Source of the DNA: a virus
Reading direction: 5' to 3' (one strand)
DNA: 42,978 nucleotides
IMG/VR virus record: IMGVR_UViG_3300037392_000014
Location: 1-42,978 of that record
In this document: positions 24,245 through 42,978 of the stretch, one piece after another
Numbering within the stretch: the first letter of the stretch is position 1
Layout of the letters: each line of letters begins with the position of its first letter
Program-made: the position numbers and the translations under genes
The notes under the pieces: generated by a model
Databases searched by the model: none
Told to the model about the DNA's origin: nothing
The model's input: only the letters and a program-made list of their open reading frames with translations

Positions 24245-24856
24245 TTAGGCTCCTTTCTTGAGTTCGGCTATACGAGCCTTGAAGTGATCGGTGTAGTGCC
24301 GTGCCTGGTCAGCCGGCAGAGAATTCATGATCTTCGTCAGCTCTGGAATGTCTTTAGCAGCTGCAAACCTGGCTAGAACATCTGGGTCATGCTCGCTAGT
24401 GGATTGTTGTCTGTTTCCTTGTGGCGTAACTTGGTGCGTTTCTGCGTCAGGATCATGACTGGTTTCTTCTGTCGGGATGCAGAAGGCTTGGAATGCTGCA
24501 TATTTGTACGCAATGGACATTGCCTTGTTTGTTGCTTTATCGCCACTGTCCATCGCTTCCCCGAACATGGAGACAGTGTGCTTTGTCCCGTCAATAGCGC
24601 TAACGAAATCGAATTCTGCCTGCACGGTGACGTAGAAAAGGACGCCACCTTTAGCTGTCGTGCGCTCGGTGCTTTCACGCGATAGACAGCGTGGAAGGAT
24701 CAGTAGCTTATGCTTTGCAAGAAGTGGGGAAAGTGTGTTGTAGACAGCATCGATACCACGAAACATGAATCCTTGTTGCTGATTCTTGCTCGACTTGCTG
24801 ATGCCGATTTGAGCCAGTTCATCCTGAACTGCATTGATTGCTTTGTAGACTTCCAT
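24245..24856 (-). CDS. erf: ERF-family single-strand annealing protein
   Basis: I choose ATG 24856 ([20 protein letters not shown]), 7 nt after AAGGA, giving 203 residues. The ERF pattern is clear: [57 protein letters not shown] and [20 protein letters not shown] with FCIPTEE. These proteins promote annealing of complementary strands in phage recombination, like P22 Erf. Gene order (ERF, SSB) is classic. The C-terminal part ([20 protein letters not shown]) is a helical tail that may bind partners. Confidence 0.93.
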
Positions 24857-24910
24857 GATATTCCTTAGAGTTGTGTAATGCCTGAGAGGCAAAATTCCTA
24901 CTGTGGCTGC

Positions 24911-25078
24911 TTAAAAGGGCAGCCGTCCCGATTCTACATCTTTCTTCTGCTGCTCCTCCTGTTCTTTAGTCAGTGTTGGTCGCCAGACATATTCTCCCAT
25001 TGGATGTATCTTGTCAGAGTATGTCTGTACTAGACCGAGTTTTACGGCCTTGTCGTAAGGCATCACGTGAGGGATCAT
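24911..25078 (-). CDS. 55-residue protein ending in an SSB-like acidic/hydrophobic tip
   Basis: ATG 25078 has a perfect GGAGG site. The product (MIPHVMPYDKAVKLGLVQTY, then YVWRPTLTKEQEEQQKKDVE) ends SGRLPF. The last residues, an acidic stretch followed by LPF at the C-terminus, resemble the IPF tip of SSB proteins, which this phage's SSB lacks. It lies directly upstream of the ERF gene. Whether it recruits SSB-interacting proteins is only a hypothesis; the fold is otherwise unknown. Confidence 0.68.
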   Translation of the reverse strand: MIPHVMPYDKAVKLGLVQTYSDKIHPMGEYVWRPTLTKEQEEQQKKDVESGRLPF

Positions 25079-25320
25079 TTTTCCTCCATATGCCATTGCT
25101 CGATGTATTCGATCATCGCTTCATAAGGAGCACTGTCGCCAGGCGGTGCTGCACGATAACCCATTGCTAGCTCATGAAATTCTTGGCAATCAATCCCTTT
25201 CTTGGCTCGTTTTTCAATCGCTGCATCCAGCACTTTAACCCACGTCTGACGAGACACGATCACCCCGTTAGCCAAGTCTTGCTTTAATTGTTGAAGCTCT
25301 TTTAAATTCATGTCATTCAT
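25075..25320 (-). CDS. Small helical protein of the recombination operon
   Basis: The start is ambiguous between ATG 25320 (MNDMNLKELQQLKQDLANGV) and ATG 25311; I give the longer. The 81-residue product has a helix followed by a VIVSRQTWVKVLDAAIEKRA segment and a tail YEAMIEYIEQWHMEEK. Its stop overlaps the next start by 4 nt. No family is recognised. Confidence 0.68.
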   Translation of the reverse strand: MNDMNLKELQQLKQDLANGVIVSRQTWVKVLDAAIEKRAKKGIDCQEFHELAMGYRAAPPGDSAPYEAMIEYIEQWHMEEK

Positions 25321-25594
25321 CCTTTTTGTTGACAACGCGCTCGATATCTTCAGCCATTTGTGCTGTATTTTTCTTCCAGTTCAGCACCATGCCAGTGTTG
25401 AGATCGATATCTAGCATCAAATAGTCTCCATAGTGATCCCCTGGCATGAAATCTGGCACATAGCCATCATCCTGATCGAAAATGATATTGCCTTCTGTAT
25501 CTTTAAGCTGATAGGTAAAACGGTCTGTGACTTTGCAGCAGATACTAATCACTTTTACATCAACCAATACCATTTTTTGTTGATTAATGTTCAT
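25313..25594 (-). CDS. Small beta-rich protein
   Basis: The 93-residue protein begins MNINQQKMVLVDVKVISICC after a strong AGGAGG. It is beta-rich (FTYQLKDTEGNIIFDQDDGY, YGDYLMLDIDLNTGMVLNW) with an acidic C-terminal helix. It is co-transcribed with the ERF and SSB genes. I recognise no family and propose no function. Confidence 0.7.
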   Translation of the reverse strand: MNINQQKMVLVDVKVISICCKVTDRFTYQLKDTEGNIIFDQDDGYVPDFMPGDHYGDYLMLDIDLNTGMVLNWKKNTAQMAEDIERVVNKKDE

Positions 25595-25740
25595 TTACCC
25601 TCCTGATTGAATGCTGTCTCAAGCCTATCCTCAAGGTCAATTGCATTTACGGGTTCTTCATAGCCAAGACATTCGAGATGAGCGCCTTTTTCTTCGTCAA
25701 TCTTCGACCATAGCCGATATCCACATTCGCTGCATTCCAT
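25591..25740 (-). CDS. 49-residue zinc-finger-like protein, first gene after the leader RNA
   Basis: ATG 25740 follows AAGGAGAGGCA. The product MECSECGYRLWSKIDEEKGA starts with a CxxC pair and later has HLECLGYEE, so one zinc may be bound by C3/H. It is the first gene downstream of the structured leader at 25767-26158, only 27 nt from its last helix, and is coupled to the next gene by ATGA. Function unknown. Confidence 0.7.
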   Translation of the reverse strand: MECSECGYRLWSKIDEEKGAHLECLGYEEPVNAIDLEDRLETAFNQEGK

Positions 25741-25766
25741 TGCCTCTCCTTTTCTTTAGTCAATAA

Positions 25767-26158
25767 GGCAGGAACGAGGGGTTGATCCTCCCCGCTCTAG
25801 CCACACTCTCTATGCCTACTTGAGAATACTGCTACTGCCTAAGCCAATCATTCGTGATTTCCCGGGGACTTTGAGCGCCCAACTTTATCAACCATATTCC
25901 CGGTTCCTGTGGTCCCTGATTGAAGGCCACGCGCCGTTCCTGCCACCATAGCGCACTGTCTTTTCTTCCACGCCGGGAACAACATGCCCGCTTAATATCG
26001 CTCGGAGTGCGAACAGCGCGGGCCAGAATGCAAAAAGCCGTCAAAAGACTGGATTCTGGTGGGGCAAGATAAGATCGGACAATGAACAATCTTTATCTAC
26101 AGAACCCAAGCTTTTGACGGCTTGCTATGCTTCATCATCTGTACTTACTACCTGGCCC
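25767..26158 (-). ncRNA. Structured leader RNA, copy A (homologous to 37473-37871)
   Basis: No convincing gene lies in 25741-26211. Reading leftward it forms: an outer helix GGGCCAG/CTGGCCC (26158-26152 with 26026-26020); a long hairpin, 13 perfect pairs (26123-26111 with 26047-26035) plus 8 pairs (26107-26100 with 26058-26051) plus an apical helix (26098-26089 with 26075-26067), followed at once by a U5 run; then a conserved block with TTCGCACTCCGAGCGA; and a closing 9-bp helix GGCAGGAAC/GTTCCTGCC (25944-25936 with 25775-25767) around a 160-nt loop. Copy B has the same order, spacing and total length with compensatory changes. It lies 27 nt before the first gene of the recombination operon, as a 5' leader would. 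It is not a tmRNA, RNase P RNA or tRNA that I recognise. Confidence 0.75.
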
Positions 26159-26211
26159 CACGCCATTGAGAGCGATTCTAAACAACTACTTTCTACGAGT
26201 CAATCACTGAT

Positions 26212-31269: not shown

Positions 31270-31533
31270 CTAACAACCATGGCTTGCGATTGTCTTGCCA
31301 TGCTCGTTCATCACATAAGCATTACCGGTTACCTCATGGCTGCGCACTTTGCCATCCGACGATGCGACTTCCAATTGAAACCGATGTCCAAAGTGATTAC
31401 CAACCTGCCCATCTGGAACCAGGATCGGAACGAAGGCCATCACCTCATTATTCGCCACCGGAACCAGTTTGAAACAATGATCAGGGTGAGTATCTGACAT
31501 GTCACAGTCGGACATGATTTTTACATACAACAT
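31270..31533 (-). CDS. Small protein between the two tRNA genes
   Basis: ATG 31533 has a GGAG site 6-8 nt upstream. The 87-residue product (MLYVKIMSDCDMSDTHPDHC) is beta-rich: FKLVPVANNEVMAFVPILVP, GHRFQLEVASSDGKVRSHEV. It is placed between the tRNA genes in the leftward transcript. No family is recognised. Confidence 0.65.
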   Translation of the reverse strand: MLYVKIMSDCDMSDTHPDHCFKLVPVANNEVMAFVPILVPDGQVGNHFGHRFQLEVASSDGKVRSHEVTGNAYVMNEHGKTIASHGC

Positions 31534-31618
31534 GGTCTACTCCTAGTAAATGCCATCTCTGGCGAAATCTGGCCGGACTTCCACCGGCTTTGTCTGTATA
31601 GCGGTACTCGCTCTCAAT

Positions 31619-31723
31619 CTTGGATGGTGGGATTCGAACCCACGGTAAGAGGTTTGCCTATCTTTACTCCCCTACGCCACCTGCTATGCAGGAATGTACC
31701 TTAAGCCACTCAGCCACATCCGA
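31619..31723 (-). tRNA. Class-II tRNA-like gene, apparent GCA anticodon, long variable arm
   Basis: Reverse-strand sequence of about 105 nt has a tRNA-Ser/Leu-type D-arm (GGCTGAGTGGCTTAAGGT), a T-arm GTGGG-TTCGAAT-CCCAC, and an acceptor stem TCGGATG/CATCCAA with one mismatch, discriminator G and no encoded CCA. Standard numbering puts CTGCATA in the anticodon loop with U33 present and anticodon GCA (Cys codons). The variable region is about 34 nt with a possible 5-bp stem, much longer than usual. The anticodon stem pairs only 3 of 5. It could be a diverged serine/leucine tRNA, a pseudo-tRNA, or a noncanonical decoder. The identity is not settled. Confidence 0.6.
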
Positions 31724-31744
31724 TCTTACTACTAGAATTAACTC

Positions 31745-32085
31745 ATCCTAGCAAGAGTTTTGGCTTACAGTTCACCAACCTGACTACTCGACGCTTTCGC
31801 TTTCATTCAGGGTCATCTGACTTCGCCTTTGTGATGCCTGGCTCTCATCCCAAGCGGGCCTTTACTCTTGCCAGCGGCCTAGATTTTGCAAGTTCTCTAA
31901 TCGGAGGAATATCCGAACGTCATCACACATCATCGGGCTGGGCTTGATTCCAGCTACTTCGGCCTGATTGGAGCGCGAAGCTAATCTCGGCTTAGGTTGC
32001 AATCAGGACAGAGCCATTATTGCCGACGCACTTAGCACGTCCTTCCGTGCTGCCGATGATGTGTAATCCCTCGTTTCGTGAGGGA
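31745..32085 (-). ncRNA. Large structured noncoding RNA next to the tRNA genes
   Basis: No credible gene occupies 31740-32112. The region holds nested perfect inverted repeats: 12 bp (31926-31937 with 32054-32065), within it 8 bp (31964-31971 with 32001-32008), a 6-bp hairpin with a 6-nt loop (32035-32052), a 5-bp hairpin (31938-31955), and outside it a 5-bp hairpin (32069-32085) plus an 8-bp helix (31752-31759 with 31865-31872). The transcript probably runs leftward with the tRNAs. It is not tmRNA or RNase P RNA, as none of their conserved cores is present. Placement next to tRNA genes recalls large phage RNAs such as GOLLD and ROOL, but I cannot claim membership. Confidence 0.65.
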
Positions 32086-32112
32086 GACGGCAGAATTATC
32101 TGCTCCTACTAA

Positions 32113-32289
32113 TTAATCGCGTTTGCAAGACACGATATGGTTATACAGGCTATTGACCGCGATAGTACGATTGCAGATTGGGCATTTTCCAGTATTGCGC
32201 TCTTCTCCTGCTGCTTTCATTGCTGCAGCCATTGCAGAATTTTTTGCGCGCATACGACCTGCAGTACCAACGGATTTCTTTGCTGCCAT
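32113..32289 (-). CDS. 58-residue zinc-finger-like protein
   Basis: ATG 32289 has AAGGA 7 nt upstream. The product has a basic Ala-rich N-terminus (MAAKKSVGTAGRMRAKNSAM) and CPICNRTIAVNSLYNHIVSC, a C-x2-C-x12-H-x4-C knuckle that should bind one zinc. It might bind nucleic acid; the basic N-terminus supports this. It lies immediately upstream of the structured RNA in the same leftward transcript. Confidence 0.72.
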   Translation of the reverse strand: MAAKKSVGTAGRMRAKNSAMAAAMKAAGEERNTGKCPICNRTIAVNSLYNHIVSCKRD

Positions 32290-32360
32290 GACGTTTCCTT
32301 ATGAAGTTAACTTAGCGTCATGGTTCCCTCCTATTTGTTGTGTTTTCAGATATGGAAAAC

Positions 32361-32566
32361 TTACTTCTTAGCCTTCAGGACTTTATTTGCCTTAGCGTCA
32401 ATCTTCTTTTCGGTAGATTCTGACATGCGGCCAGCGTTTACAGCTTGAGTTGCCCTGCCTTGGCGTTTGCAGCGTGAGCACGGTCGTTAATCGGAAAGCT
32501 CTTGCCAGCACCAGCGAATTCAGATTTCGGCATTGCCTTGCGCTGTTTAGTAGTCAATTTAGACAT
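32361..32566 (-). pseudogene. Frameshifted small phage gene
   Basis: ATG 32566 opens MSKLTTKQRKAMPKSEFAGA and continues to NDRAHAANAKA, but the frame then ends after 42 residues at 32440-32438. In another frame the sequence continues ATQAVNAGRMSESTEKKIDA and ends at 32361 with KVLKAKK. Adding one base near 32456 restores a 68-residue protein of the KLTxKQRxxxPxxx.F...G...P.NDxxHAxxA family common in phages. A one-base deletion or a sequencing error is most likely; a -1 ribosomal shift on AGGGC is also possible. Confidence 0.7.
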
Positions 32567-32678
32567 TTCAGTCTCCGTAAAAGGTTTCCTTAGTTTAGCA
32601 CAAGTGTTATTCGTTAAGACAACGACAAATGCAGAATATGTATCATGAAACCAACAATGATCTTTGGATTGCTACCGA

Positions 32679-33806
32679 TCAATCTGATTCATTTTTCATG
32701 GCACGGAGAGCATTCAGCAGACCTTCATGTGAAATGACACGCTCGGCTTCGCCCATATAGCTTGCCACAGCATATGTGCGGCTATTGTCGAGAATTTTAA
32801 TCAGGTCTTCTACATATAAAGGAGTTTTATTAGCGCCATCTGGTGTGGATTGCATTGGGTAATGAATGCTCCGCGCTAGGTTCTCCATATCTGGTTCGGA
32901 TAGGCCGCTATGTATTTCTCTACCATCAGTAGGTCTGGCCGCTAAGCTGGAGCAGGATTGCCACTTCACTTCGCTCCACGCTTCTCCAGAAGCCTCCTTT
33001 GAACACATGCCTGCTTTCATATCATCAATCTGCGATAGCACTCCCATCATATAAGGTAGTGGTTTCCAGTTAGGTGCGTCGTGCTTGTAGTGGTTTTGCC
33101 AGATAAAGGTGGCGATATCTGTTGCGTATTGAAGCTCCTTTGCTAGCTCTTGATTTGAAGTCGAACAAAGGGCACGAGCATCTGCAAGCGCCTTTTCATA
33201 GCGCTTAACACACTTCTTGTATTCCTTTAGAGCATGTTGCTGGCGACAAGAGATGTCATAGAGTTCATGCGGCTTCAGGTCTTTGAGGTGTACTACGCTG
33301 GGGGCATCCAATAGCTTTCGAACCTCAGCACGGATCAGGCCGAAGCTTCCAAAGCAATTACGCACCGAGAAGCCAGCATCAGGCTCAAAAGATGCTTTGT
33401 GCAGCAGTTCCTGCAAGCCATCCAATGCCTCAATCAACTCCAATGGGTGGTGTATACCTTTTTCTTGCAACTGTGTTATCGACAGATCAGGCGCCTTCAG
33501 GGCGGCAAGTTCTGCTTCGGCTTTCTCTGCACGCTCGCGCCAATGATTACGTGCTTCTATAGCATCATTAAAATATACGCGCTGCGCTTGGGATTCTGCT
33601 ACGCGTCCAGCTTTCCGCTGCTTTTTACCCCAGGCTTCGATGTGGGCGTGAAAGTGATTTTCGCGAACGTAGCGCTCGCCTTCAAATATGAAGCGCGGAA
33701 TATGATCGTTTGTATCAATGCTCTCTGCTTTGCCAGAGGTGATCTGGCTTTCGGTGGTGGGAAGCGCGGCAATCGCGTCCAGCGCTTCTTTAAGTTCTTT
33801 GCTCAA
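32679..33806 (-). CDS. Accessory coiled-coil protein, paralogue of the 19 kb gene
   Basis: The start at 33806 is a TTG with AAGGGAG upstream. The 375-residue product begins MSKELKEALDAIAALPTTES, with QITSGKAESI shared with the 206-residue protein at 18974-19594. The middle contains WRERAEKAEAELAALKAPDL, a coiled coil, and CVKRYEKALADARALCSTS. The C-terminal half has ESGRTYAVASYMGEAE-like NSRTYAVASYMGEAERV. Mosaic phage protein, function unknown. It takes the place of the 61- and 206-residue genes of the 19 kb cassette. Confidence 0.72.
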   Translation of the reverse strand: MSKELKEALDAIAALPTTESQITSGKAESIDTNDHIPRFIFEGERYVRENHFHAHIEAWGKKQRKAGRVAESQAQRVYFNDAIEARNHWRERAEKAEAELAALKAPDLSITQLQEKGIHHPLELIEALDGLQELLHKASFEPDAGFSVRNCFGSFGLIRAEVRKLLDAPSVVHLKDLKPHELYDISCRQQHALKEYKKCVKRYEKALADARALCSTSNQELAKELQYATDIATFIWQNHYKHDAPNWKPLPYMMGVLSQIDDMKAGMCSKEASGEAWSEVKWQSCSSLAARPTDGREIHSGLSEPDMENLARSIHYPMQSTPDGANKTPLYVEDLIKILDNSRTYAVASYMGEAERVISHEGLLNALRAMKNESD

Positions 33807-33837
33807 TTCGTTCTCCCTTAGAGGAATGAATGGGTGG

Positions 33838-34014
33838 TTAGTCGGCCAAATCGCGCAGCAAGTAATACTTCACGATTTCGAGCGCTCCGACCGCAGCGGA
33901 TAGTGAAATCTCGCCGTCGTATTCATGAATCAGATAGTTGATGCGGCGTGTCAATTCGCCTGCTTTCGGATCGATCTTAGTAGGCAATGGGAGTTTTAGT
34001 TCATTATTCGCCAC
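33838..34014 (-). CDS. 58-residue cassette protein, copy 2
   Basis: The start is the GTG at 34014, aligned with the ATG of copy 1 and preceded by GGAG. The product (ANNELKLPLPTKIDPKAGEL after the initiator) keeps TRRINYLIHEYDGEISLSAA and VGALEIVKYYLLRDLAD. High protein conservation with drifted DNA implies selection on both copies. Function unknown. Confidence 0.75.
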   Translation of the reverse strand: MANNELKLPLPTKIDPKAGELTRRINYLIHEYDGEISLSAAVGALEIVKYYLLRDLAD

Positions 34015-34156
34015 GACTATCTCCATCACTCAGGACATCAAGGCCAAAGCCAAAGATGCAGGATGCAAAGATCCACGCCAGTATCGGGCCGATGAAGAAG
34101 GTCAGCACAATGAAGGCACCGAGTGCCGGGGTCAGCGCAAATAAAATCTTGCTCAT
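34004..34156 (-). CDS. 50-residue membrane protein, copy 2
   Basis: ATG 34156 overlaps the previous stop (ATGA). MSKILFALTPALGAFIVLTF and GPILAWIFASCIFGFG repeat the hydrophobic pattern of copy 1. Both copies have conservative changes only, so the membrane protein is probably expressed from both operons. Function unknown. Confidence 0.75.
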   Translation of the reverse strand: MSKILFALTPALGAFIVLTFFIGPILAWIFASCIFGFGLDVLSDGDSRGE

Positions 34157-34383
34157 CGCTTCTCCCCTGTATCCGCCTGTTCTGGCTTGGTGGTGCGCGG
34201 TTTGCGAATTCCTTTGATTGCAGCTTTCGCCTCTTCTCGCACGTTGTCGTAGGCCATTTCGATTGCCTCGCTGCCGGACAGGCCGTAGCGCTTCTCTGCC
34301 GTGCGGTGCAGCTTCTCAGGGCTGTCGTAGGATGCGATGCGAGTCAGCGCGGCATATAGCTTGATTTCCAAATTGGTCGCCAT
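34153..34383 (-). CDS. Small helical protein
   Basis: ATG 34383 (MATNLEIKLYAALTRIASYD) follows GGAGGG. The 76-residue product is helical (KLHRTAEKRYGLSGSEAIEM then VREEAKAAIKGIRKPRTTKP) and ends EQADTGEKR, the same end as the zinc-ribbon-like protein at 20133. It replaces that gene in this cassette, a module swap. No family recognised. Confidence 0.7.
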   Translation of the reverse strand: MATNLEIKLYAALTRIASYDSPEKLHRTAEKRYGLSGSEAIEMAYDNVREEAKAAIKGIRKPRTTKPEQADTGEKR

Positions 34384-34386
34384 CGC

Positions 34387-34998
34387 TTAGCCCTCCGCTG
34401 TATCAGCGCTTTGCGCGAGTTGAGCGGGCGCGGGTGGGAGTGGCATCCAGTGGCTGATCGCCTTCGCGTTGCCGTTGTCAAAATCTACGCACCAGCCCTG
34501 ATGATTCTCCGGGTCGTGCTGATCGTCGCTTCGCTGCGCAAGGGTTCGATAGCCGCACCAGATCAATACTTCCTGATTCAGTTCCGGCAGCCGCTCATCG
34601 ACGCTGATCCACTTGTCCTGCTCTTGCGCTGGAACCTGTTTAGCAAGAGCGGCAAGCAGTGACTGAATATCCGATGCCAAAAGCTCAAAGCCGCAATTGG
34701 GACCAACATCAAAGCCGTGGATGTGTTCGAAATCCAATGCTCGTGCTTTCTTGCGGCGAGCCATATACTGCTGTACTCGCTGTATCGCCGCAGCCAGGTC
34801 GGATGGCTGCTCGGTAGTGGCGCTAGATGCTAAAGCTGCGCGGCGGTTCCAATTCTCGATTGCTTTGAAGGCGGTGATTGCCGTTTGACCTTCGGCCTTG
34901 CAAACGTTGCAGATCACAACGCTCGAATAGACTTTGCCGCCGTCATATACATTTGCATCACTGCCGCAGAATGGGCAGGGTTCGAGTTTGTTGTCCAT
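34387..34998 (-). CDS. Lar-like zinc-ribbon plus DUF551 protein
   Basis: The 203-residue product starts MDNKLEPCPFCGSDANVYDG and continues VVICNVCKAEG and AIENWNRRA, which matches the Lar (restriction alleviation) zinc-ribbon family. The C-terminal part has KWISVDERLPELNQEVLIWC and ISHWMPLPPAPAQ, the DUF551 module. Lar proteins relieve host type I restriction in some prophages; activity here is unproven. The segment AKQVPAQEQDK and the end ADTAEG are shared with the gene at 20410-20964. Confidence 0.82.
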   Translation of the reverse strand: MDNKLEPCPFCGSDANVYDGGKVYSSVVICNVCKAEGQTAITAFKAIENWNRRAALASSATTEQPSDLAAAIQRVQQYMARRKKARALDFEHIHGFDVGPNCGFELLASDIQSLLAALAKQVPAQEQDKWISVDERLPELNQEVLIWCGYRTLAQRSDDQHDPENHQGWCVDFDNGNAKAISHWMPLPPAPAQLAQSADTAEG

Positions 34999-35824: not shown

Positions 35825-36208
35825 ATGGCAAATCCGCATGCAGTATCAATCAATAAATTGCAAGCTATCGTAAACTTTGCACATCAATCCAAGGTTCCGA
35901 TTACTGTTCCTGATGTTGCGGATTTGCTACACGTATGTCCTAGTTCGGCACGTTCCTACTTGTCTAAACTAGTTGACATTGGATTTCTTGAGCGCACAAA
36001 GCCAGCGCATCAAAGTGACAAGTTTCAGTTTACACCGACATCAAAAACAACAATTCCAAATGACATCGTGCGCATTCGTGATCCTAAAAAACAACGAATC
36101 ATGTTCTCTGAGGACGGCTGCCGAGTCATGCAGTCTGTAGCTGTGCAGATCGGCATGGTACGCGATCCTCTGATTAAAGCGCTATTTGGCGACTGGAAAG
36201 CAGCGTAA
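35825..36208 (+). CDS. Winged-helix protein
   Basis: The 127-residue protein begins MANPHAVSINKLQAIVNFAH, with ITVPDVADLLHVCPSSARSY as a winged-helix recognition unit and LSKLVDIGFLERTKP as wing. The remainder (PNDIVRIRDPKKQRIMFSED) is an uncharacterised tail. It is coupled 2 nt after the HTH gene. Likely a second regulator; the target is unknown. Confidence 0.74.
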   Translation: MANPHAVSINKLQAIVNFAHQSKVPITVPDVADLLHVCPSSARSYLSKLVDIGFLERTKPAHQSDKFQFTPTSKTTIPNDIVRIRDPKKQRIMFSEDGCRVMQSVAVQIGMVRDPLIKALFGDWKAA

Positions 36209-36228
36209 TAAGTTGACATGCTGAAACA

Positions 36229-36248
36229 TATGTAATGTACATTACATA
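36229..36248. promoter_or_regulatory. Perfect 20-bp palindrome TATGTAATGT/ACATTACATA
   Basis: The palindrome lies in the intergenic gap after the winged-helix gene, next to a TTGACA hexamer at about 36213. A matching -10 is not clear. Possibly an operator for the winged-helix protein. Confidence 0.5.
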
Positions 36249-36252
36249 CAAC

Positions 36253-36280
36253 ACAAAAGGCCGTTTATGCGGTCTTTTGT
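36253..36280 (+). terminator. Intrinsic terminator after the winged-helix gene
   Basis: An 11-bp hairpin (36253-36263 with 36270-36280; one G-U pair) with a 6-nt loop ends with TTTTGT and is followed by CGTTTTT. It would end the two-gene regulatory transcript. The U-run is interrupted, so its strength is moderate. Confidence 0.65.
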
Positions 36281-36385
36281 CGTTTTTGCGCTACAAAACG
36301 AACATATTTTGTATATCCCAATCGTGCGCAACATAAGTGATGTGATTATGAAAACTCCTTTAAACAACTTGATGGAGTTTGTAAC

Positions 36386-36964
36386 ATGGATACGACAATT
36401 GTTGACCTGTCTTTCTGCACTAAAGCCTTAACTACGGCTCTTGCTATGAGCAAGCAATCAATTCAAGTAGAGGTTGCTGTAGCATTTGTGACGTTCTATG
36501 AGCTAGGCGGCACTGAATTGTCTATGAAACGCGATCTCAGACAGATTTACCATGATGCAGGCAGGGTAGATTGCTTGACGGCTGATTCACGCTCATATCA
36601 GACCGTTACACGCAGGATTAATCGTTGTGCAGCTCTGTATCAGAAAATCGGCTCCAAGCGTCTTGCTCGCGTCCTGAAGGGCAAAGAGAAGCAGGAATTA
36701 ATTGATGCCGTAATTGAGTTCCTCGCACCGCTTGAAATCGAATCAATGGATGACGTCGCAGCCCATGCAGGAATGACACGTAAGCGCGCAGAAGACGAAG
36801 CGACACACGAGCCTGACAAGCACGATAGACGAGCAACAGATGCACCTGGCACAACGCATGTGAAGACAAAACACATTGACGTTGCAGTACCACCAGACAC
36901 GCCAGCTAACGAGCTGATTGCATTGGCTAACAAGCTCTTGGCGTTAGCGCAGAAAATTGTGTAG
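36386..36964 (+). CDS. Hypothetical regulatory-type protein
   Basis: ATG 36386 follows GGAG. The 192-residue product has a helical first half (MSKQSIQVEVAVAFVTFYEL, YQTVTRRINRCAALYQKIGS, KGKEKQELIDAVIEFLAPLE), a charged linker (HEPDKHDRRATDAPGTTHVK) and a helical tail ANELIALANKLLALAQKIV. The pattern resembles phage proteins seen near replication or immunity regions but I cannot name a family. It is followed by a strong terminator. Confidence 0.7.
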   Translation: MDTTIVDLSFCTKALTTALAMSKQSIQVEVAVAFVTFYELGGTELSMKRDLRQIYHDAGRVDCLTADSRSYQTVTRRINRCAALYQKIGSKRLARVLKGKEKQELIDAVIEFLAPLEIESMDDVAAHAGMTRKRAEDEATHEPDKHDRRATDAPGTTHVKTKHIDVAVPPDTPANELIALANKLLALAQKIV

Positions 36965-37021
36965 AATTGATCTCGAAATCCTTTGTTTCCTCGTTCTTGT
37001 TTTACCATTCTTCTTCTCTTC

Positions 37022-37049
37022 AGACCGCTTCCCCAGCGGTCTTTTTTTT
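37022..37049 (+). terminator. Strong intrinsic terminator
   Basis: Perfect 8-bp hairpin AGACCGCT/AGCGGTCT with a 5-nt TCCCC loop, followed by eight T. It ends the transcript of the 192-residue gene. The palindrome copy 3 starts immediately after. Confidence 0.85.
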
Positions 37050-37050
37050 A

Positions 37051-37060
37051 TCACATGTGA
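37051..37060. promoter_or_regulatory. Palindromic site TCACATGTGA (copy 3)
   Basis: The core with flanks forms TATCACATGTGATA, a 14-bp perfect palindrome, directly after the terminator and about 70 bp before the 60-residue gene. It is the most symmetric of the three copies. Candidate operator for the transcript that leads into the structured leader RNA. Confidence 0.55.
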
Positions 37061-37129
37061 TAGCTTTTTCATAGCATTTCACCGGTAGTTGTCGTAATCT
37101 GTCTCCAGGCAAACCAAAGGAGACAGGAC

Positions 37130-37312
37130 ATGACTATGTTGGAATTTCGTCACATTATCCAAGCCCTTCACCAAGAGCGTTGCCTGCCAACCTGGCAGCG
37201 TGATTTCATTCGTCAAGCCTACGCAACGAGTCTAGGAGGCGAGAAGCCTTTTCACCTGACCGCTAAGCAGCAAGAGAACGTCATTGTCATCTATAAACAA
37301 CACTACCAATAG
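37130..37312 (+). CDS. 60-residue hypothetical protein
   Basis: ATG 37130 follows GGAGACAGGAC. The product (MTMLEFRHIIQALHQERCLP, then WQRDFIRQAYATSLGGEKPF) is basic and helical and ends QENVIVIYKQHYQ. No family recognised. It precedes a small membrane gene and the leader RNA. Confidence 0.68.
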   Translation: MTMLEFRHIIQALHQERCLPTWQRDFIRQAYATSLGGEKPFHLTAKQQENVIVIYKQHYQ

Positions 37313-37321
37313 GAGATTGAG

Positions 37322-37423
37322 ATGCAACGCTATTCGACCGTTTCTAGCTTCAACTGGCCTGTTGCTGTGCTGATTGCTCTTGTAGGACTGTTTTGGACCG
37401 TTGTGTATTGGCTTTGGTTATAA
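37322..37423 (+). CDS. 33-residue membrane protein
   Basis: ATG 37322 has AGGAGA 7 nt upstream. MQRYSTVSSFNWPVAVLIAL is followed by VGLFWTVVYWLWL, one hydrophobic segment rich in Trp. Tightly spaced after the 60-residue gene. One of many tiny membrane proteins in this genome; unknown role. Confidence 0.6.
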   Translation: MQRYSTVSSFNWPVAVLIALVGLFWTVVYWLWL

Positions 37424-37472
37424 GTGTTGACAGATCATAATATCTTCTGAGAAAATTCGTACTAATGGTGTG

Positions 37473-37871
37473 GTAGCCAGAGCACAAGGGAGAAACAGTA
37501 GCCAAGGCCGTTTAAGTCTTGGGCGCTGTTGAGATTGAGGGAGCTAAGCTGTTTCTCCGCCCTCACTCTCTCTACCTCCAGCGCTCAAGATTTAAGCGGC
37601 TTTTTTGCGTTCTGGCTACTCATCATTCGTACTCCGCACGACAGTAAGGGCCGCCCGGCCGCACGGAAGAGTAGGGCAGACATAAGTCCTCGCGTAATCT
37701 GACTAGGGGGCGATCAAGCGAGCACATTGCTTGAGGAAACCGCGTAAAAAGTGAAGGCCGAAAGGCTGGGCGTGTTGGCTCTACGAAGTGAGCAGCGGTT
37801 GTTACGGTCTTATGTCTTGAGTGCTCTATGGAATGATGTGTTTGGGGGGGATTCACTTTTAACCCCTAGTC
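37473..37871 (+). ncRNA. Structured leader RNA, copy B (homologous to 25767-26158)
   Basis: No gene on the forward strand fits 37424-37893. Elements in order: outer strand GTAGCCAGA (37473-37481) pairing with TCTGGCTAC (37611-37619); GGAGAAACAG (37489-37498) pairing with CTGTTTCTCC in the hairpin loop (37549-37558), a pseudoknot or switch; a 22-bp hairpin stem with every position paired (37507-37528 with 37579-37600, three G-U), an apical helix (37531-37541 with 37560-37570), then U6 at 37601-37606. Downstream: AGACATAAG/CTTATGTCT (37678-37686 with 37809-37817), AACCGC/GCGGTT, a GCC-GAAA-GGC tetraloop, and a closing GACTAGGGG/CCCCTAGTC (37701-37709 with 37863-37871). It ends 22 nt before the next gene. 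Possible promoters: TTGACA at 37427 or TTGGTT-N16-CATAAT (37414-37441). Confidence 0.78.
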
Positions 37872-37893
37872 TTGATACTCCTATGGAGAAAAG

Positions 37894-38241
37894 ATGATTA
37901 AACGTTATGCAGAACAAATCAAAGCCGCAAGACAGCATGCACTAGCTGTTCTCAAGGATCGAGGTAAAGTGGTTCCAGAATCATCCGGCGAAAGGGTCAG
38001 TAATAAAACAATGGTTGTGATGCTTGGAATCACTTTCCCGAATGGAAAGGCGATTAAAAAATGTCATGACAAAGCGCTTCTTCATTGGCATAAAACTGGA
38101 TTTGGAACTTATGCTCCAGCTCTGAAAAATCCAAGCAAGAAACAACTAGCAGCAAGTGACAAAGCATTGATGGCAAGCGCAATCGCGGAGACTATGAAGA
38201 ATCGGAAAACCTATCGAGGAAAAGAAAAGGAGTGGAAATGA
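37894..38241 (+). CDS. First gene after leader copy B; basic hypothetical protein
   Basis: ATG 37894 follows GGAGAAAAG. The 115-residue product (MIKRYAEQIKAARQHALAVL) is basic, with SNKTMVVMLGITFPNGKAIK and HKTGFGTYAPALKNPSKKQL. It may bind nucleic acid. The stop overlaps the next start (ATGA). No family recognised. Confidence 0.7.
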   Translation: MIKRYAEQIKAARQHALAVLKDRGKVVPESSGERVSNKTMVVMLGITFPNGKAIKKCHDKALLHWHKTGFGTYAPALKNPSKKQLAASDKALMASAIAETMKNRKTYRGKEKEWK

Positions 38242-38546
38242 GCGTATTCCCAGATTGGTTACCTAAGGACGCATGGGAAGGCTTCATTGAGATGCGCAAA
38301 GCTATAAAAAAGCCTCTCAAGACTGATCGTGCTATCACGCTTAACATCAATACTCTGGATCGTCTACGCAAAGAGGGGAACGATCCTGAAGAAGTTTTAA
38401 ATCAATCTGTGGCAAATTCATGGCTAGGGTTATTCCCTGTCCGCGTAGAGCGCCGAGGGCAGCCTAAAGGCGTGCAACTAAGTCCGCTGGGCAAAACGGG
38501 CCAAGCGACCGCAAATAACCTGCAAGACTGGCTGGAGGAAGCATGA
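38238..38546 (+). CDS. Phage replication-associated small protein
   Basis: I choose ATG 38238 (MSVFPDWLPKDAWEGFIEMR), 6 nt after AAGGAG, instead of an upstream GTG. The 102-residue product has KAIKKPLKTDRAITLNINTL and RKEGNDPEEVLNQSVANSWL, then GLFPVR. This WxxF.EMR.K.KKP.....L.KL..EGNDP..VL.QS..N.W.GL.P pattern is frequent at the C-terminus of phage replication proteins of the O type, here as a free-standing gene. Role in replication is inferred. Confidence 0.75.
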   Translation: MSVFPDWLPKDAWEGFIEMRKAIKKPLKTDRAITLNINTLDRLRKEGNDPEEVLNQSVANSWLGLFPVRVERRGQPKGVQLSPLGKTGQATANNLQDWLEEA

Positions 38547-38947
38547 GCGACAAGACACTAGCGCAGCACTTTAAGGCTTGGGAGGCTGACGTTTTTGGTT
38601 TTGGTTATGGGACAGGGGAAATGCATACATTATGCGAGTTGCAGAAATTTTTTGCTGTGTGCGAGACAAATGAGCATGAGGGCTATACCTACGACTATCG
38701 CAAAATGGAAGATGCAATGACGCCTGCTAATTTTTGGCTGATGCTAAACATCTTATGCCATGCAGACATCATTGAATATGGAACTTCGCCTCGGTTTGGT
38801 TGGTTGACTGATGAAGGCATTGCATTGCTTAAGTTTGTTATGACTCATAACATCAATGAGCTATATGAAATAGTCATGGGCGATTCTGATTTAGGTGACT
38901 ATTGCATAGAGGGGGACAACCCATTCAGAGGTAAACATGCTAGATAA
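38543..38947 (+). CDS. Hypothetical early protein
   Basis: The 134-residue product (MSDKTLAQHFKAWEADVFGF) is mixed alpha/beta with EMHTLCELQKFFAVCETNEH and FGWLTDEGIALLKFVMTHNI. It overlaps both neighbours by 4-11 nt, so it is in a coupled array with replication-type genes. I recognise no family. Confidence 0.7.
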   Translation: MSDKTLAQHFKAWEADVFGFGYGTGEMHTLCELQKFFAVCETNEHEGYTYDYRKMEDAMTPANFWLMLNILCHADIIEYGTSPRFGWLTDEGIALLKFVMTHNINELYEIVMGDSDLGDYCIEGDNPFRGKHAR

Positions 38948-39542
38948 CATCGAAGAGAAGCGCCGCTTCGCCCAGATCATGACCATGCTGGCCGACTATT
39001 ACGATAAGGAAGTGTCGAAAGCCAAGGCAACGATGTATTGGGAGGGACTAAAGCAATACGACCTGGAAGCGGTGGAAAAGGCGTTCAAGATGCACGCAGC
39101 ATCGCCGGACGAGAATAGCCGCTGGTTCCCGAAGATTGCCGACCTGCTGAAGTACATCGAGGGTAACACTGAAGACAAGGCGCAACTCGCATGGTCGAAG
39201 GTAGACAAAGCAATCCGGCAAGTAGGTACTTACACCGATGTTGTTTTTGACGATCCAATCATTCATGCAGTGATTATGGACATGGGTGGTTGGCATCTGT
39301 TAGGCGAAAAGGATGACGAGGCGTGGCCCTTCGTCGCCAAGGAGTTCGTTACTCGCTACAGAGGCTACAAGCAGAAGACACAGCAGCCGGACTATCCTGC
39401 TCGTTTGATTGGGTTGGCTAACACACACAATGCGTCAAATGGACTTCCATTAGCGCCGCCAAGGCTAGTTGGAGACATTCAAAAATGCAAATTGGTGCTG
39501 GCACTGGAAAACAAGAAGGACGAACTAAAGCAGCTTAACTAG
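38937..39542 (+). CDS. DUF6475-like phage protein (possible helicase-loading role)
   Basis: The 201-residue protein has FAQIMTMLADYYDKEVSKAK, MYWEGLKQYDLEAVEKAFKM, RWFPKIADLLKYIEG, KAQLAWSKVDKAIRQVGTYT, DVVFDDPIIHAVIMDMGGWH and FVTRYRGYKQK. This is the pattern of the DUF6475 family found in phage replication regions. The family may assist the replicative helicase, but that is not established. It lies downstream of the O-type fragment gene, supporting a replication context. Confidence 0.82.
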   Translation: MLDNIEEKRRFAQIMTMLADYYDKEVSKAKATMYWEGLKQYDLEAVEKAFKMHAASPDENSRWFPKIADLLKYIEGNTEDKAQLAWSKVDKAIRQVGTYTDVVFDDPIIHAVIMDMGGWHLLGEKDDEAWPFVAKEFVTRYRGYKQKTQQPDYPARLIGLANTHNASNGLPLAPPRLVGDIQKCKLVLALENKKDELKQLN

Positions 39543-39551
39543 GAGAAAGAA

Positions 39552-39737
39552 ATGGATGACGAATTTGTTGTGATTATGTTTTTAATAGTGCTAATGGGAA
39601 TTGGCGCAGCAGTTGGAGCCTTTGCATCTAATGTATCTACAAGCAATTCAACATTTAAAGACTGTCAGCGATATGGGAAAACTGTATTGCGAGATAAGAT
39701 TATTGAATGCAAGATTATTAGCGAGGATGTTAAATGA
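39552..39737 (+). CDS. 61-residue membrane protein
   Basis: ATG 39552 follows AGGAG. MDDEFVVIMFLIVLMGIGAA is an N-terminal transmembrane segment, then a polar region with Cys residues (STFKDCQRYGKTVLRD). It could be an uncleaved signal anchor. It overlaps the next gene by 4 nt. Unknown role. Confidence 0.65.
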   Translation: MDDEFVVIMFLIVLMGIGAAVGAFASNVSTSNSTFKDCQRYGKTVLRDKIIECKIISEDVK

Positions 39738-40066
39738 CTAAGGAATACACAGAAGCATTTGCACGCCAGGAAGTCATGCGGTTGCTGACAAAGGAATCTG
39801 CTGGCTACTCTGACATGATGATGAGCCGGAAGCTTGGTATTGGACTGCCAGCTCTGCGCCTGGTGCTAGAGAACATGGAGCGCGACAAGATCATCCGCAA
39901 AGAGCCGCTGGGCAAGTGCAAGCGCTATTACATTCCGTCGCCATCCCAACTTGCTGCAGAACAGGCCGAGAAACCGATTATGCGGCCCTTGGCGCCGCGC
40001 CCACAGCACAAGGCTATCATTGAGCGCATCATGGATGAACGCATGGCTATTGCTTCCGTTGGGTAA
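39734..40066 (+). CDS. Winged-helix-like protein, paralogue of 42001-42345
   Basis: The 110-residue product has EVMRLLTKESAGYSDMMMSR, LGIGLPALRLVLENMERDKI, and a wing with IRKEPLGKCKRYYIPSPSQL, the same plan as the protein at 42001. Both have a SxxQLAxEx(A/E)xx segment after the wing and a charged helical tail. Small phage DNA-binding proteins of this type probably regulate or modulate replication. The target is unknown. Confidence 0.72.
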   Translation: MTKEYTEAFARQEVMRLLTKESAGYSDMMMSRKLGIGLPALRLVLENMERDKIIRKEPLGKCKRYYIPSPSQLAAEQAEKPIMRPLAPRPQHKAIIERIMDERMAIASVG

Positions 40067-40069
40067 TAT

Positions 40070-40348
40070 ATGTCAAAGAGCTACGCTAAGATTTCTAGCA
40101 GGATCAGAAAGAGCCGAAGAGAAACTATCTACAAGATGCTGCTTAAAAAGCATGGGCAGGTCTTATGTTTCGTATGCGGCCTGCCTGTGGATGAATCAAA
40201 AGCTACACTTGAACATATCAAACCACGATCTTTGGGCGGTACATTAGCTATGGATAATTTGGCTATTTCGCATGCCAAGTGCAATCGCAAACGCGGTGCG
40301 AGCGAAGATATTGGAAACCGGAAGCTAACATTGGTAAATAAAAAATAA
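40070..40348 (+). CDS. HNH endonuclease
   Basis: The 92-residue protein has a basic N-terminus (MSKSYAKISSRIRKSRRETI), then CFVCGLPVDESKATLEHIKP, the catalytic His with RSLGGTLAMDNLAISHAKCN and a final basic tail. All HNH residues are present: two Cys pairs, the HI..., the Asn and the final His. Small phage HNH proteins of this kind can act in packaging or be mobile. It is not near terminase here. Confidence 0.88.
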   Translation: MSKSYAKISSRIRKSRRETIYKMLLKKHGQVLCFVCGLPVDESKATLEHIKPRSLGGTLAMDNLAISHAKCNRKRGASEDIGNRKLTLVNKK

Positions 40349-40356
40349 GGTGATAT

Positions 40357-40635
40357 ATGAATGTGAAACCGGGTGATTTGGCGATTCAAATTAATTCGAC
40401 AAGAGGGCTGGAGGGGCGAATTTGCAAAGTTATTAGGTATATTGGATTTTGCATGTACGATAATCTTTCATGTGACTACGATGCATGGGAATGCGAAATT
40501 CAAAGTCCTCAATTTAATATATTTGGTGTTAGATTTGATGCTGTGCCAATATCAGATTCTTGGCTCCGTCCTATCTCTGGACTTCCAGATACTGATAACG
40601 TGGAAGATAAAAAGCCTATCAAGGAGGTAGCATGA
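40357..40635 (+). CDS. Small phage protein of known style (SH3-like)
   Basis: The 92-residue product begins MNVKPGDLAIQINSTRGLEG and has KVIRYIGF, YDAWECEIQSPQFNIFGVRF and PISDSWLRPISGLPD. The pattern KPGDLAxxI....EG.ICxV and WLRPISG is common in proteobacterial phages and could be a small beta-barrel. No function is established. Start follows AGGTGAT. Confidence 0.72.
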   Translation: MNVKPGDLAIQINSTRGLEGRICKVIRYIGFCMYDNLSCDYDAWECEIQSPQFNIFGVRFDAVPISDSWLRPISGLPDTDNVEDKKPIKEVA

Positions 40636-40835
40636 GCGAATGCAAAGGATTACTTGGGAAAATATTCGGGCACAAATACTATGCAAATTATTCATTTGGT
40701 TCGCCAATGCTAATTGATGTAAAAAGGGTAACCGAGGAAGGATTCATTAGGATGATAGAAGCTACCAAGCCTGCCACTTATGAAGGCTCTATTTGCGAGC
40801 GATGCGGCCATAAAATCACAAAGGATAAAGAATGA
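40632..40835 (+). CDS. Small CxxC protein
   Basis: The 67-residue product (MSECKGLLGKIFGHKYYANY) has a GHK motif near the N-terminus and CERCGHKI near the C-terminus, typical of the tiny zinc-binding phage proteins that begin with a K(I/F)FGHK segment. It overlaps both neighbours by 4 nt. Function unknown. Confidence 0.7.
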   Translation: MSECKGLLGKIFGHKYYANYSFGSPMLIDVKRVTEEGFIRMIEATKPATYEGSICERCGHKITKDKE

Positions 40836-41056
40836 GCGACAACAAACAACAATCAGCATTCCCTCATCCTAAATTCGGTGGAGCATGGGGAAGTGATCCG
40901 GAGCCAGGGATGACACTGCGCGATGCATTCGCAATTGCTGCACTTCCGAGTTTACTTAACTCACTTTACAGTGGTGACAACTTTTGGTTTCCTAATATCG
41001 CGGAAGAGGCGTATAAGATGGCTGATTTTATGATGGTACAAAGGGAGAAGAAATGA
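40832..41056 (+). CDS. Small phage protein with GMTLRDAFA motif
   Basis: The 74-residue product contains AFPHPKFGG, EPGMTLRDAFAIAALPSLLN and AEEAYKMADFMMVQREKK. The GMTLRD.FA.AAL....A..A Y..AD.M...R pattern is widespread in proteobacterial phages. It is coupled by ATGA overlaps on both sides. No function is known. Confidence 0.78.
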   Translation: MSDNKQQSAFPHPKFGGAWGSDPEPGMTLRDAFAIAALPSLLNSLYSGDNFWFPNIAEEAYKMADFMMVQREKK

Positions 41057-41445
41057 GCGTTTGGTGCAATCGTACGTTGGTAATTTCCCCTCTATATTTT
41101 GGCTTATGCACGTCTGAAAAGATGCTTCATAAGGAATTGAAGAAATTAGGAATTCCAGTCACTACTTGGCCTCTATTTATCAGTAATGTATGGAATGGTG
41201 CAACTACACATTTTTTTGAAAGTGATAAAGGAAAACCATGTGCTCTGGTATGTATAAGAGATGTAGAAGGTGTTACAGGTATTGAGATGGCCGCTGTCTT
41301 AGTCCATGAGGCTGTTCACATTTGGCAAGCCATCAAAGAGAATTATGGAGAAAAAAACCCATCGGATGAATTTGAGGCTTATAGTATTCAGCATATTTCT
41401 GGCCAATTAATGGATGCATATGTTGAGCAAAAGGAGAAGAAATGA
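41053..41445 (+). CDS. HExxH zinc metallopeptidase-like protein
   Basis: The 130-residue protein has LVHEAVHIWQ, with H85, E86 and H89 of the zincin motif, and a downstream glutamate (DEFEAYSIQH, residues 105-113) that could be the third ligand. The N-terminal part has VISPLYFGLCTSEKMLHKEL. Small phage proteins with this motif are known but their substrate is not. It lies in the run of small early genes, overlapping both neighbours. Confidence 0.78.
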   Translation: MSVWCNRTLVISPLYFGLCTSEKMLHKELKKLGIPVTTWPLFISNVWNGATTHFFESDKGKPCALVCIRDVEGVTGIEMAAVLVHEAVHIWQAIKENYGEKNPSDEFEAYSIQHISGQLMDAYVEQKEKK

Positions 41446-41576
41446 CTGACACTCAAAGCGACATTGTGACTATTCTATCCATAGTAGGCATTGCATTGCT
41501 ATTTTCTGCTCTAGCAGAATATCTGGCAGAGAAATACTTTGGTAAGGATAAGAATGATAAGGAGGATGAGGAATGA
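41442..41576 (+). CDS. 44-residue membrane protein
   Basis: ATG 41442 follows AAGGAG and overlaps the zincin stop. MTDTQSDIVTILSIVGIALL is followed by FSALAEYLAEKYFGKDKNDK. One transmembrane span with an acidic and basic C-terminus. Coupled to the next gene by ATGA. Unknown role. Confidence 0.62.
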   Translation: MTDTQSDIVTILSIVGIALLFSALAEYLAEKYFGKDKNDKEDEE

Positions 41577-41893
41577 ATAAGCCGCATAAGCATGCAGAAT
41601 TGATTCACAAATGGGCCGATGGATTTGAAATTGAATTTAAAGATGAGGCTGATGGAAAGTGGAAGAGGCCGCCTGGCGTACCTCAATGGAACGAAGCTAC
41701 TGAATACCGCATCAAGCCAGAGCCTCAATATCCAAAGACAAATATATCAGACCAGCAAATTATGGCGATTTGGAATTCGTTTCCAGCACTAGCAAACATG
41801 GCTGGAGTAATTCTGGTAATGATGAACAAAGCAATTGCTCGTGCCATCGAAGACGGTCAAGTAATCATCGCTCCTGGTCAGATTGAAGGCTAG
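41573..41893 (+). CDS. Phage protein with ADGFEIE and TEYRIKP motif
   Basis: The 106-residue product has KHAELIHKWADGFEIEFKDE and WNEATEYRIKPEPQ, a short module very common in proteobacterial phage proteins, followed by a helical part (SDQQIMAIWNSFPALANMAG). Role unknown. It overlaps the membrane gene start and is separated by about 18 nt from the next. Confidence 0.78.
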   Translation: MNKPHKHAELIHKWADGFEIEFKDEADGKWKRPPGVPQWNEATEYRIKPEPQYPKTNISDQQIMAIWNSFPALANMAGVILVMMNKAIARAIEDGQVIIAPGQIEG

Positions 41894-41911
41894 GGACAAA
41901 GGAGAAGAATA

Positions 41912-42004
41912 ATGGAATTGTTTTATATCCTATTAGGCACATTGGCTCTTATTATTATTGCTCTAAGTTTTGGCAATGGTGACGATGAGGAAGAGGACAA
42001 ATGA
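41912..42004 (+). CDS. 30-residue membrane protein
   Basis: ATG 41912 follows AGGAGAAG. MELFYILLGTLALIIIALSF is a transmembrane segment and the tail is acidic (GNGDDEEEDK). The stop overlaps the next start (ATGA). Smallest credible gene in the region; supported by ribosome-binding site, spacing and topology. Confidence 0.6.
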   Translation: MELFYILLGTLALIIIALSFGNGDDEEEDK

Positions 42005-42345
42005 AAACGGAAGAAATTACTACATTTCAGCCGCAGATTCTAAATTATCTGCGCGGAAGGATTGGAGATATTGTCTCTGTTAAATCCGTAGCGAAATATT
42101 TGAAGGTTGGCGAAGCATCGGTCATGCATATCATGCTTAATATGGAATTGGATGGCCTCATTCGAAAAGGGCGAACTTCAAAAGGAACGTTAGGTTTCTT
42201 TTTGCCTAGCCGAGAGCAATTGGCGTCAGAAGAAGCTGCAGCAGGTAAAAGCCGTTTGTTCAAGAAACTGCGCTCTGATCCTCAAAAGCTTGAACGCCTG
42301 GAAGAGATTAAGCGCCAGCGAGAACTGTATAAGAGCATCGGATGA
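42001..42345 (+). CDS. Winged-helix-like protein, paralogue of 39734-40066
   Basis: The 114-residue product has ITTFQPQILNYLRGRIGDIV, SVAKYLKVGEASVMHIMLNM and a wing with GRTSKGTLGFFLPSREQLAS, then a basic helical tail (KKLRSDPQKLERLEEIKRQR). It shares the layout with the 110-residue protein at 39734. Probably DNA-binding; target unknown. Confidence 0.72.
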   Translation: MKTEEITTFQPQILNYLRGRIGDIVSVKSVAKYLKVGEASVMHIMLNMELDGLIRKGRTSKGTLGFFLPSREQLASEEAAAGKSRLFKKLRSDPQKLERLEEIKRQRELYKSIG

Positions 42346-42521
42346 TTAAGTATATTCCATTGGCTATTTTACTTTGCGCTTGCTCTAGCCAAAACGATAC
42401 AGAGCAAGCCATGAAAGCATTAATTGTTCAATGCGACAAACCAGTCAAGATTACTGCCAAATTCTCAAACTATGGCAATGAGATTGTTATGGTTTGCGAT
42501 GAGGTTAAGAAGATTAAATGA
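42342..42521 (+). CDS. 59-residue lipoprotein-like protein
   Basis: ATG 42342 overlaps the previous stop. MIKYIPLAILLCACSSQNDT has an n-region, a hydrophobic stretch and lipobox-like LLCAC or ACSS, so it should be lipidated in a Gram-negative host. The rest (ALIVQCDKPVKITAKFSNYG then EIVMVCDEVKKI) has two Cys that might form a disulfide. Roles such as spanin or superinfection exclusion are possible but unproven. Confidence 0.68.
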   Translation: MIKYIPLAILLCACSSQNDTEQAMKALIVQCDKPVKITAKFSNYGNEIVMVCDEVKKIK

Positions 42522-42978
42522 AAAAGCGTAACAAGAAATATTCCGGGCCGAAGCAGACGTACAACCCAATCGGCTTGGCATGTAATGCAGCTAAACTAAT
42601 CTCGCGTGAAAATCAGAAATGGCTTATTGGTCCAGCAATTGAAGCCTTCCAGAAATTCATGAAAGGAGAGGCTGGACGGGATGAATGGGAGCGTATTGTA
42701 GAGATACTAAATGCAGGAGAAGCACTTTGCGAATTGAATATCGGTAATAACCTGATTGAATATTTTAACAATGCTCATGAAGCAATGCATCAAATTGGAC
42801 TTCGAATGATTGCCGACAAAGGCTCGGTTTGTCATATGAGTGAATTGGAGGCCATACGCGAAGGGATCAATTGCTATGGAGTGCAAATAAAGCTTTGCTC
42901 GCAATCGGAATATAACCGCGCCGTAGATATGGTCAACAATCTTCGGAGAAGCGTTAAAACGATCAAGGTTAAGCAGTC
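42518..42978 (+). CDS. Hypothetical protein, C-terminus beyond right edge
   Basis: The frame starts at ATG 42518 (MKKRNKKYSGPKQTYNPIGL) coupled to the lipoprotein stop by ATGA, and stays open to the window end. It is helical with LACNAAKLISRENQKWLIGP, EAFQKFMKGEAGRDEWERIV and EALCELNIGNNLIEYF. No family recognised. It continues the small-gene array. Confidence 0.7.
   Translation, partial: MKKRNKKYSGPKQTYNPIGLACNAAKLISRENQKWLIGPAIEAFQKFMKGEAGRDEWERIVEILNAGEALCELNIGNNLIEYFNNAHEAMHQIGLRMIADKGSVCHMSELEAIREGINCYGVQIKLCSQSEYNRAVDMVNNLRRSVKTIKVKQ

Follow-up and report, generated by a model that had tools for sequence, protein, structure and literature searches.

The phage genome and its two leader RNAs

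The DNA analyzed here (the window) is a 42,978-base IMG/VR virus record, and its proteins, including terminase, head and tail proteins, an Erf-like annealing protein, NinB, methyltransferases and an O-like replication protein, are those of a lambda-like tailed phage. Two related elements, referred to as copies A and B, each precede an early operon (Table 1). A sequence-only reading of this genome had suggested that they are homologous leader RNAs of about 390–400 nt which end shortly before the first gene of the operon and share, in the same order, an outer helix, a long hairpin, a U-run, a TTCG(T/C)ACTCCG block and a 9-bp closing helix. The analysis bears this out: the copies are 399 and 392 nt long with gaps of 22 and 26 nt to the first gene, the order of parts is the same in both, with the closing helix enclosing 153 nt in copy A and 160 nt in copy B, and R1, a covariance model of the core, matches the window at exactly these two places. 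Copies A and B were included in the 56 sequences of the R1 training set; the result is not circular, because the other sequences covary and matches exist outside of the training set.

The predicted fold of copy A was better than 100 out of 100 shuffled sequences (z −4.3), and that of copy B better than 98 out of 100 (z −2.0). An alignment of the two window copies alone with MAFFT was poor past the core, since A and B belong to different subtypes, which have the core and the 5' module in common and fall into two separate groups over the last ~190 nt. A coding explanation for the elements was rejected, as the ORFs that cross the two copies are all short, with overlaps in several frames of either strand, and the RNA pairs covary.

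Table 1. Positions of the two leader RNAs, their structural parts and the adjacent genes in the window.
Feature	Position	Strand	Details
Copy A	37473-37871	+	399 nt; end 22 nt 5' of ATG 37894
Predicted sigma70-like promoter, copy A	37427..37456	+	TTGACA-18-GAAAAT; 10/12, joint best match within 36000-42978
Copy A outer helix, 5' strand	37472..37483	+	GGUAGCCAGAGC; pairs 37609-37620
Copy A long terminator-like hairpin	37507..37600	+	22-nt arms 37507-37528, 37579-37600; from fold; covarying homologous stem in L002
Copy A U-run	37601..37606	+	from sequence; kept in most relatives
Copy A outer helix, 3' strand	37609..37620	+	GUUCUGGCUACU; from fold; third-strand pairing above shuffled control in relatives
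Copy A core with pseudoknot	37625..37690	+	R1 56.3 bits (E 1.6e-14); covariation
Copy A core pairs	37628-37630 / 37638-37640; 37633-37636 / 37664-37667	+	CGU / ACG; UCCG / CGGA
Helix Pb, copy A	37678-37686 / 37809-37817	+	AGACAUAAG / CUUAUGUCU; different complementary strands in L004, L061, L172, L194
Helix Pa, copy A (9-bp closing helix)	37701-37709 / 37863-37871	+	GACUAGGGG / CCCCUAGUC; compensatory changes in L061, L172, L194
Helix Pc, copy A	37748-37755 / 37852-37859	+	AAAGUGAA / UUCACUUU; covaries in L004, L061, L172, L194
First gene after copy A	37894..38241	+	115 aa, unknown
O-like replication gene, following the first gene	38232-38546	+	
Distant helicase-loader-like gene after copy A	38937-39542	+	
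Copy B	26158-25767	-	392 nt; end 26 nt 5' of ATG 25740
Predicted sigma70-like promoter, copy B	26175..26203	-	TTGACT-17-TAGAAT; 10/12, best match within 14000-33900
Copy B long hairpin	26035..26123	-	arms 26123-26100 / 26058-26035, 88% complementary
Copy B U-run	26036-26032	-	adjoins long hairpin
Copy B core with pseudoknot	25944..26014	-	R1 53.9 bits (E 7.9e-14)
Copy B 3' domain	25767..25944	-	closing helix GGCAGGAAC 25944-25936 / GUUCCUGCC 25775-25767
Operon after copy B	24245..25742	-	small ORFs, then Erf-like ssDNA annealing protein (24892-24245)

Other features were recorded in the window. Two different DNA methyltransferase genes (28495-29262 and 30147-30869) are located near each other between the RNA copies. 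A block at 19183-20617 is duplicated in the same orientation about 14 kb away at 33479-34654, with an identity of 76-100% over some stretches (88% over 300 nt), and the second block adjoins an ORF with Lar-like similarity. Two weak tRNA-like calls on the minus strand (31095-31169 and 31619-31723), from ARAGORN with an odd two-base anticodon and from the Rfam tRNA model barely above its cut-off, probably represent a decayed or false tRNA.

A covarying, pseudoknotted core

The core is 68 nt long including its pseudoknot. In the alignment of 56 sequences, a CGY strand pairs with RCG, and the intervening loop contains ACUCC, of which UCCR pairs with YGGA about 30 nt downstream to form the pseudoknot. 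The base that follows pairs with a base beyond the RCG strand, and a variable hairpin comes thereafter. In total, 97.5% of the cells in this alignment are paired. Covariation, which had been suggested as a check on the proposed family, gave a core score of 0.532, as compared to 0.179 ± 0.013 in the shuffles and no more than 0.091 with slid partners. Both copies in another viral contig, L251, are outside of the R1 training set and keep the core pairs through compensatory states that are absent from the 56 sequences, namely CUCCU with AGG and CCCCG with CGGG. The core domain is the common denominator of the family, and the 5' module its almost constant companion.

Subtypes of the 3' domain

The family divides into subtypes 3' of the core. 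Type I, represented by 32 aligned sequences, has a structure of 45 pairs in 11 helices, including a second pseudoknot in which AUCAUC/GAUGAU crosses GGCU/AGCC. In this alignment 93.5% is paired, 26 pairs have changed on both sides (13.1 ± 1.7 in the control), and the covariation score is 0.328 as compared to 0.135 ± 0.007 in the control. The 3' end of type I is G-rich, and the G-rich stretch is paired within the covarying fold. As judged from these alignments, the covariation of the core and of type I shows that the RNA fold is conserved and functions at the RNA level. In five type I records (L047, L053, L099, L110, L162), a short hairpin of the GCCCC-GCAA-GGGGC type is found shortly after the leader RNA and ahead of the first gene; it may be a distinct element for translation or processing.

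Copy A belongs to a subtype with L002, L004, L061, L172 and L194, in which the long-range helices Pb, Pa and Pc are found in every sequence despite differing letters, Pb crossing both Pa and Pc. The subtype of copy B includes L006, L089 and, distantly, L094. Its closing helix is formed by different complementary strands in L006 and L089 (GGCAAGAC/GUCUUGCC), and the right copy of L251 has AGCAACCC/GGGUUGCU at the same position. The helices of the A and B subtypes were named by eye in each sequence, so that this part checks for consistency and is not a blind test.

Promoters and the 5' module

Both elements begin just 3' of a predicted promoter-like site. In the relatives, upstream promoter-like sites that match at 10 or more of 12 positions are found in 23% of cases, as compared to 3% in shuffles. 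Most relatives contain a terminator-like stem of 10-12 bp followed by a U-run, located about 20-35 nt 5' of the core. The strand 5' of this stem can pair with the loop of the stem (7 or more pairs in 90% of 62 sequences versus 32% of shuffles), and often it can also pair past the U-run (6 or more in 69% versus 38% of shuffles); these contrasts are approximate, being based on simple mononucleotide shuffles. In L046, L055 and L108, the core starts 13 nt past the end of an upstream ORF on its own strand and has no adjacent 5' module, and thus the core can work without it. In L143, L076, L073, L140 and L154, an insert of about 100 nt separates the core from the terminator-like stem and contains a shared motif like CTGCTTTATGTGAGC, perhaps another small module.

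A new RNA class in environmental viruses

The first homologs came from a contig found by pattern and through close relatives of two window genes, the helicase-loader-like and the Erf-like one. A scan with a degenerate pattern recovered at least 120 stretches, and two further patterns 65 and 46, partly overlapping. A few pattern matches were false and located within coding sequence, and L067, L121, L122, L135 and L161, which matched the core pattern without the other features of the family, were left out. In total, at least 180 core places were gathered, some contigs having been fetched twice, of which at least 141 differ over 125 nt. Pattern scans and the model together place the RNA core in more than 150 environmental viral contigs (the first scan minus five false matches, the model-confirmed matches of the second scan and the new ones of the third). 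Only five contigs in genome bins matched, of which four bear the name of the betaproteobacteria or of an order or genus within them, and one that of Paludibacter.

With blastn, neither copy A nor the 3' domains of two relatives matched anything among the deposited phages (50,697 records) and plasmids. The sequence-only reading had named no fitting Rfam family; searches of the window and 20 loci against Rfam 15 gave no match at the element that reached the gathering cut-off. At a relaxed threshold there was nothing convincing, and copy A matched no ribozyme or intron family even at E values of up to 5. Resemblances to riboswitches, introns and RNase P that were judged by eye were not upheld by Rfam. 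One of the contigs with the leader RNA, L043, also contains a Proteo-phage-1 RNA (RF03044) at 8990-9074. No description of the RNA class was found in the open-access literature. The suggestion that this is a new class of structured RNA that heads early phage operons is strongly supported by covariation far above both controls, the leader position in relatives and the absence of an Rfam match. The class is almost certainly real and new; what is new is the RNA class, and its function may prove to be of a known kind.

Genomic position and copy number

Gene families downstream of the element in the relatives include replication initiation, primosomal, primase and DnaB-like helicase proteins, while Sak/Erf annealing proteins and exonucleases are encoded upstream on the opposite strand. 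Of 61 ORFs that are each the longest on the strand of the element to end no more than 480 nt before it, 17 match P22_Cro and 16 YdaS (overlapping counts), and others match RusA or Toprim; since gene calls were mechanical, all counts of neighboring families are lower bounds. The distance from the element to the first gene is variable among the relatives.

One copy is present in 79 of the 80 other viral records with a match, many of which are fragments, and two copies in a single record, L251. In this contig of 40,451 bases, the copies (4124-4189, minus strand; 7694-7764, plus strand) are divergent and separated by 3.5 kb; NinG is located in this interval, and a methyltransferase and the helicase-loader-like gene are on the right. 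The window has the B type on the left and the A type on the right, and L251 has them swapped, with an A-like left and a B-like right copy, so that the subtype is independent of the downstream genes. In two other records, L004 and L006, the only copy is the left one. The pairing of different subtypes in one phage may reflect avoidance of recombination between inverted repeats.

Comparison with known phage RNAs

The put RNA of phage HK022 binds the zinc-binding domain of the RNA polymerase beta' subunit and suppresses pausing and termination in cis. In lambda, nut sites are found at the left operon and in the interval from cro to the replication genes. The HK022 put RNAs act without a dedicated phage protein, with putL located immediately 3' of PL and putR about 270 nt beyond PR (PMC9378689). 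The leader RNA is similarly found 3' of early left and/or right promoters (copies A and B in the window and both sides in L251; the promoters are predicted), and as for putR and nutR, a cro-like gene is located upstream in a sizeable fraction of the relatives. Its places between cro-like and replication genes and at the left operon correspond to those of nut/tR1. Unlike HK022 put, with ~70 nt and two stem-loops, the leader RNA has ~400 nt, crossing helices and its own terminator-like hairpin, and unlike the put pair it is present in one copy in most phages. It also differs from lambda nut in that a large fold replaces the short boxB hairpin, and in having no excess of boxA-like sites (at most two mismatches), which were found in 1.4% of the elements versus 2.4% in shuffles.

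The strong predicted promoter with a terminator-like stem soon after it recalls the lambdoid pR'-tR'-Q late switch, but the leader RNA is located at early rather than late genes, and no Q-family match (PF06530, PF03589) was obtained in 38 records, some of which are possibly fragments, using models that both match the E. coli control. N-like proteins are too short and variable to be recognized by sequence. GOLLD and ROOL are other large, pseudoknotted phage-borne RNAs, of unknown function (PMC12286853). Those are often found near tRNA islands, whereas the leader RNA heads early operons and matches no Rfam model.

Possible modes of action

We consider control of transcription elongation by a cis-acting RNA, in a manner resembling put, to be the most likely mechanism, with a probability of about 40%. 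From the conserved leader position and the co-orientation with the downstream genes, we infer that the RNA acts in cis; the element is presumably transcribed, with the polymerase as its probable target and antitermination or anti-pausing as its probable effect. The ~400-nt leader would be transcribed from its own promoter or through upstream readthrough, would fold into the 5' terminator-like module and the pseudoknotted 3' domain, and would set in cis whether RNA polymerase proceeds into the early replication or recombination operon. Judging from the pairing only, the 5' strand would first pair into the terminator loop and, after readthrough, may re-pair just beyond the U-run, the core folding afterwards. 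Since the terminator-like stem is located 5' of the core, the core would be unable to rescue transcripts from that terminator in cis, a point against a simple copy of the put model. Like HK022 put and lambda nut, the element would be a general operon-level switch, tied to no particular downstream gene; either subtype occurs before either operon in the window and L251. An operon-level effect on transcription is favored because the elements are co-oriented with the genes, interchangeable between left and right, located similarly to nutR and putR, and without a Q-family match. Against antitermination, intrinsic terminators are not enriched on the same strand in the downstream operons (20, as compared to 37 on the opposite strand, over 265 kb); one candidate terminator (23138-23118) is located inside the operon after copy B. 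The single copy without a left/right pair in most records, a size several times that of put, the different fold and the lack of a boxA-like excess also count against this mechanism.

Ranked second, although unlikely, is attenuation, in which the 5' module itself is the regulated switch: the strong promoter would lead into a terminator with its loop knotted to the 5' hairpin, readthrough would depend on a factor or an antisense RNA, and in the readthrough message the 3' domain would be a sensor or a structural clamp. The 5' module may contain such a switch, given the stem and U-run 5' of the core in most relatives and the excess over shuffles of both the loop pairing and the pairing past the U-run, but the three records without an adjacent module do not fit with this explanation, and no expression platform is visible 3' of the core, the start region of copy A being outside the helices.

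It is less probable still that an RNA processed from the leader acts in trans, as an immunity RNA similar to P4 CI or c4 or in an RNA-protein complex, with the early operon providing the timing only. The large and elaborate fold, the single copy in most genomes and the highly variable loops of the 5' module, which could permit lineage-specific pairing, are consistent with such a role, and c4 and P4 CI are likewise structured RNAs in an early-operon leader. However, the loci that were read show co-orientation with the downstream operon, the two divergent copies in two records would be redundant, and there is no match to c4 or any other Rfam model. We regard as improbable, and more so than the preceding, a 5' element that stabilizes or promotes translation of early messages, such as a nuclease-resistant knot or a ribosome-recruiting leader; this would account for the direct leader position and the strong folds, but not for the promoter and terminator-like module, and the ribosome-binding site of copy A is outside the structure. 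The spacing to the first gene also differs from relative to relative.

A role in replication, as a primer or origin RNA of the kind of ColE1 RNA II, is very improbable: replication genes are usually downstream, there is mostly one copy per genome and the 3' end of type I is G-rich, but the G-rich stretch is engaged in the covarying fold, an Erf operon rather than replication genes follows copy B and the elements in L004 and L006, and two records have two divergent copies. Least probable is a relationship to self-cleaving or splicing ribozymes or to introns, as the compact and multiply pseudoknotted core might suggest; copy A has no Rfam match to such families, and the intergenic location offers no exon pair for splicing.

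Put-like elongation control leads to a fuller claim, which we make more tentatively than that of the mechanism itself: a large pseudoknotted RNA, with a fold unrelated to put and a switch that includes a knotted terminator of its own, may reprogram the host RNA polymerase in cis without a phage antiterminator protein, and may be widespread in uncultured phages, probably of betaproteobacteria.

The results add a class of large RNAs whose pseudoknotted core is tight and almost invariant. The class is absent from the curated RNA library and is carried by many environmental phages, yet has no blastn match among the deposited phage records. Even under another mechanism, the covariance model and the subtype alignments make the RNA class directly testable. 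If the RNA acts on the polymerase, it would be a second and much larger solution to antitermination by RNA only, next to the established example of HK022 put, and could account for the switching of genes in lambda-like phages without a recognizable Q protein.
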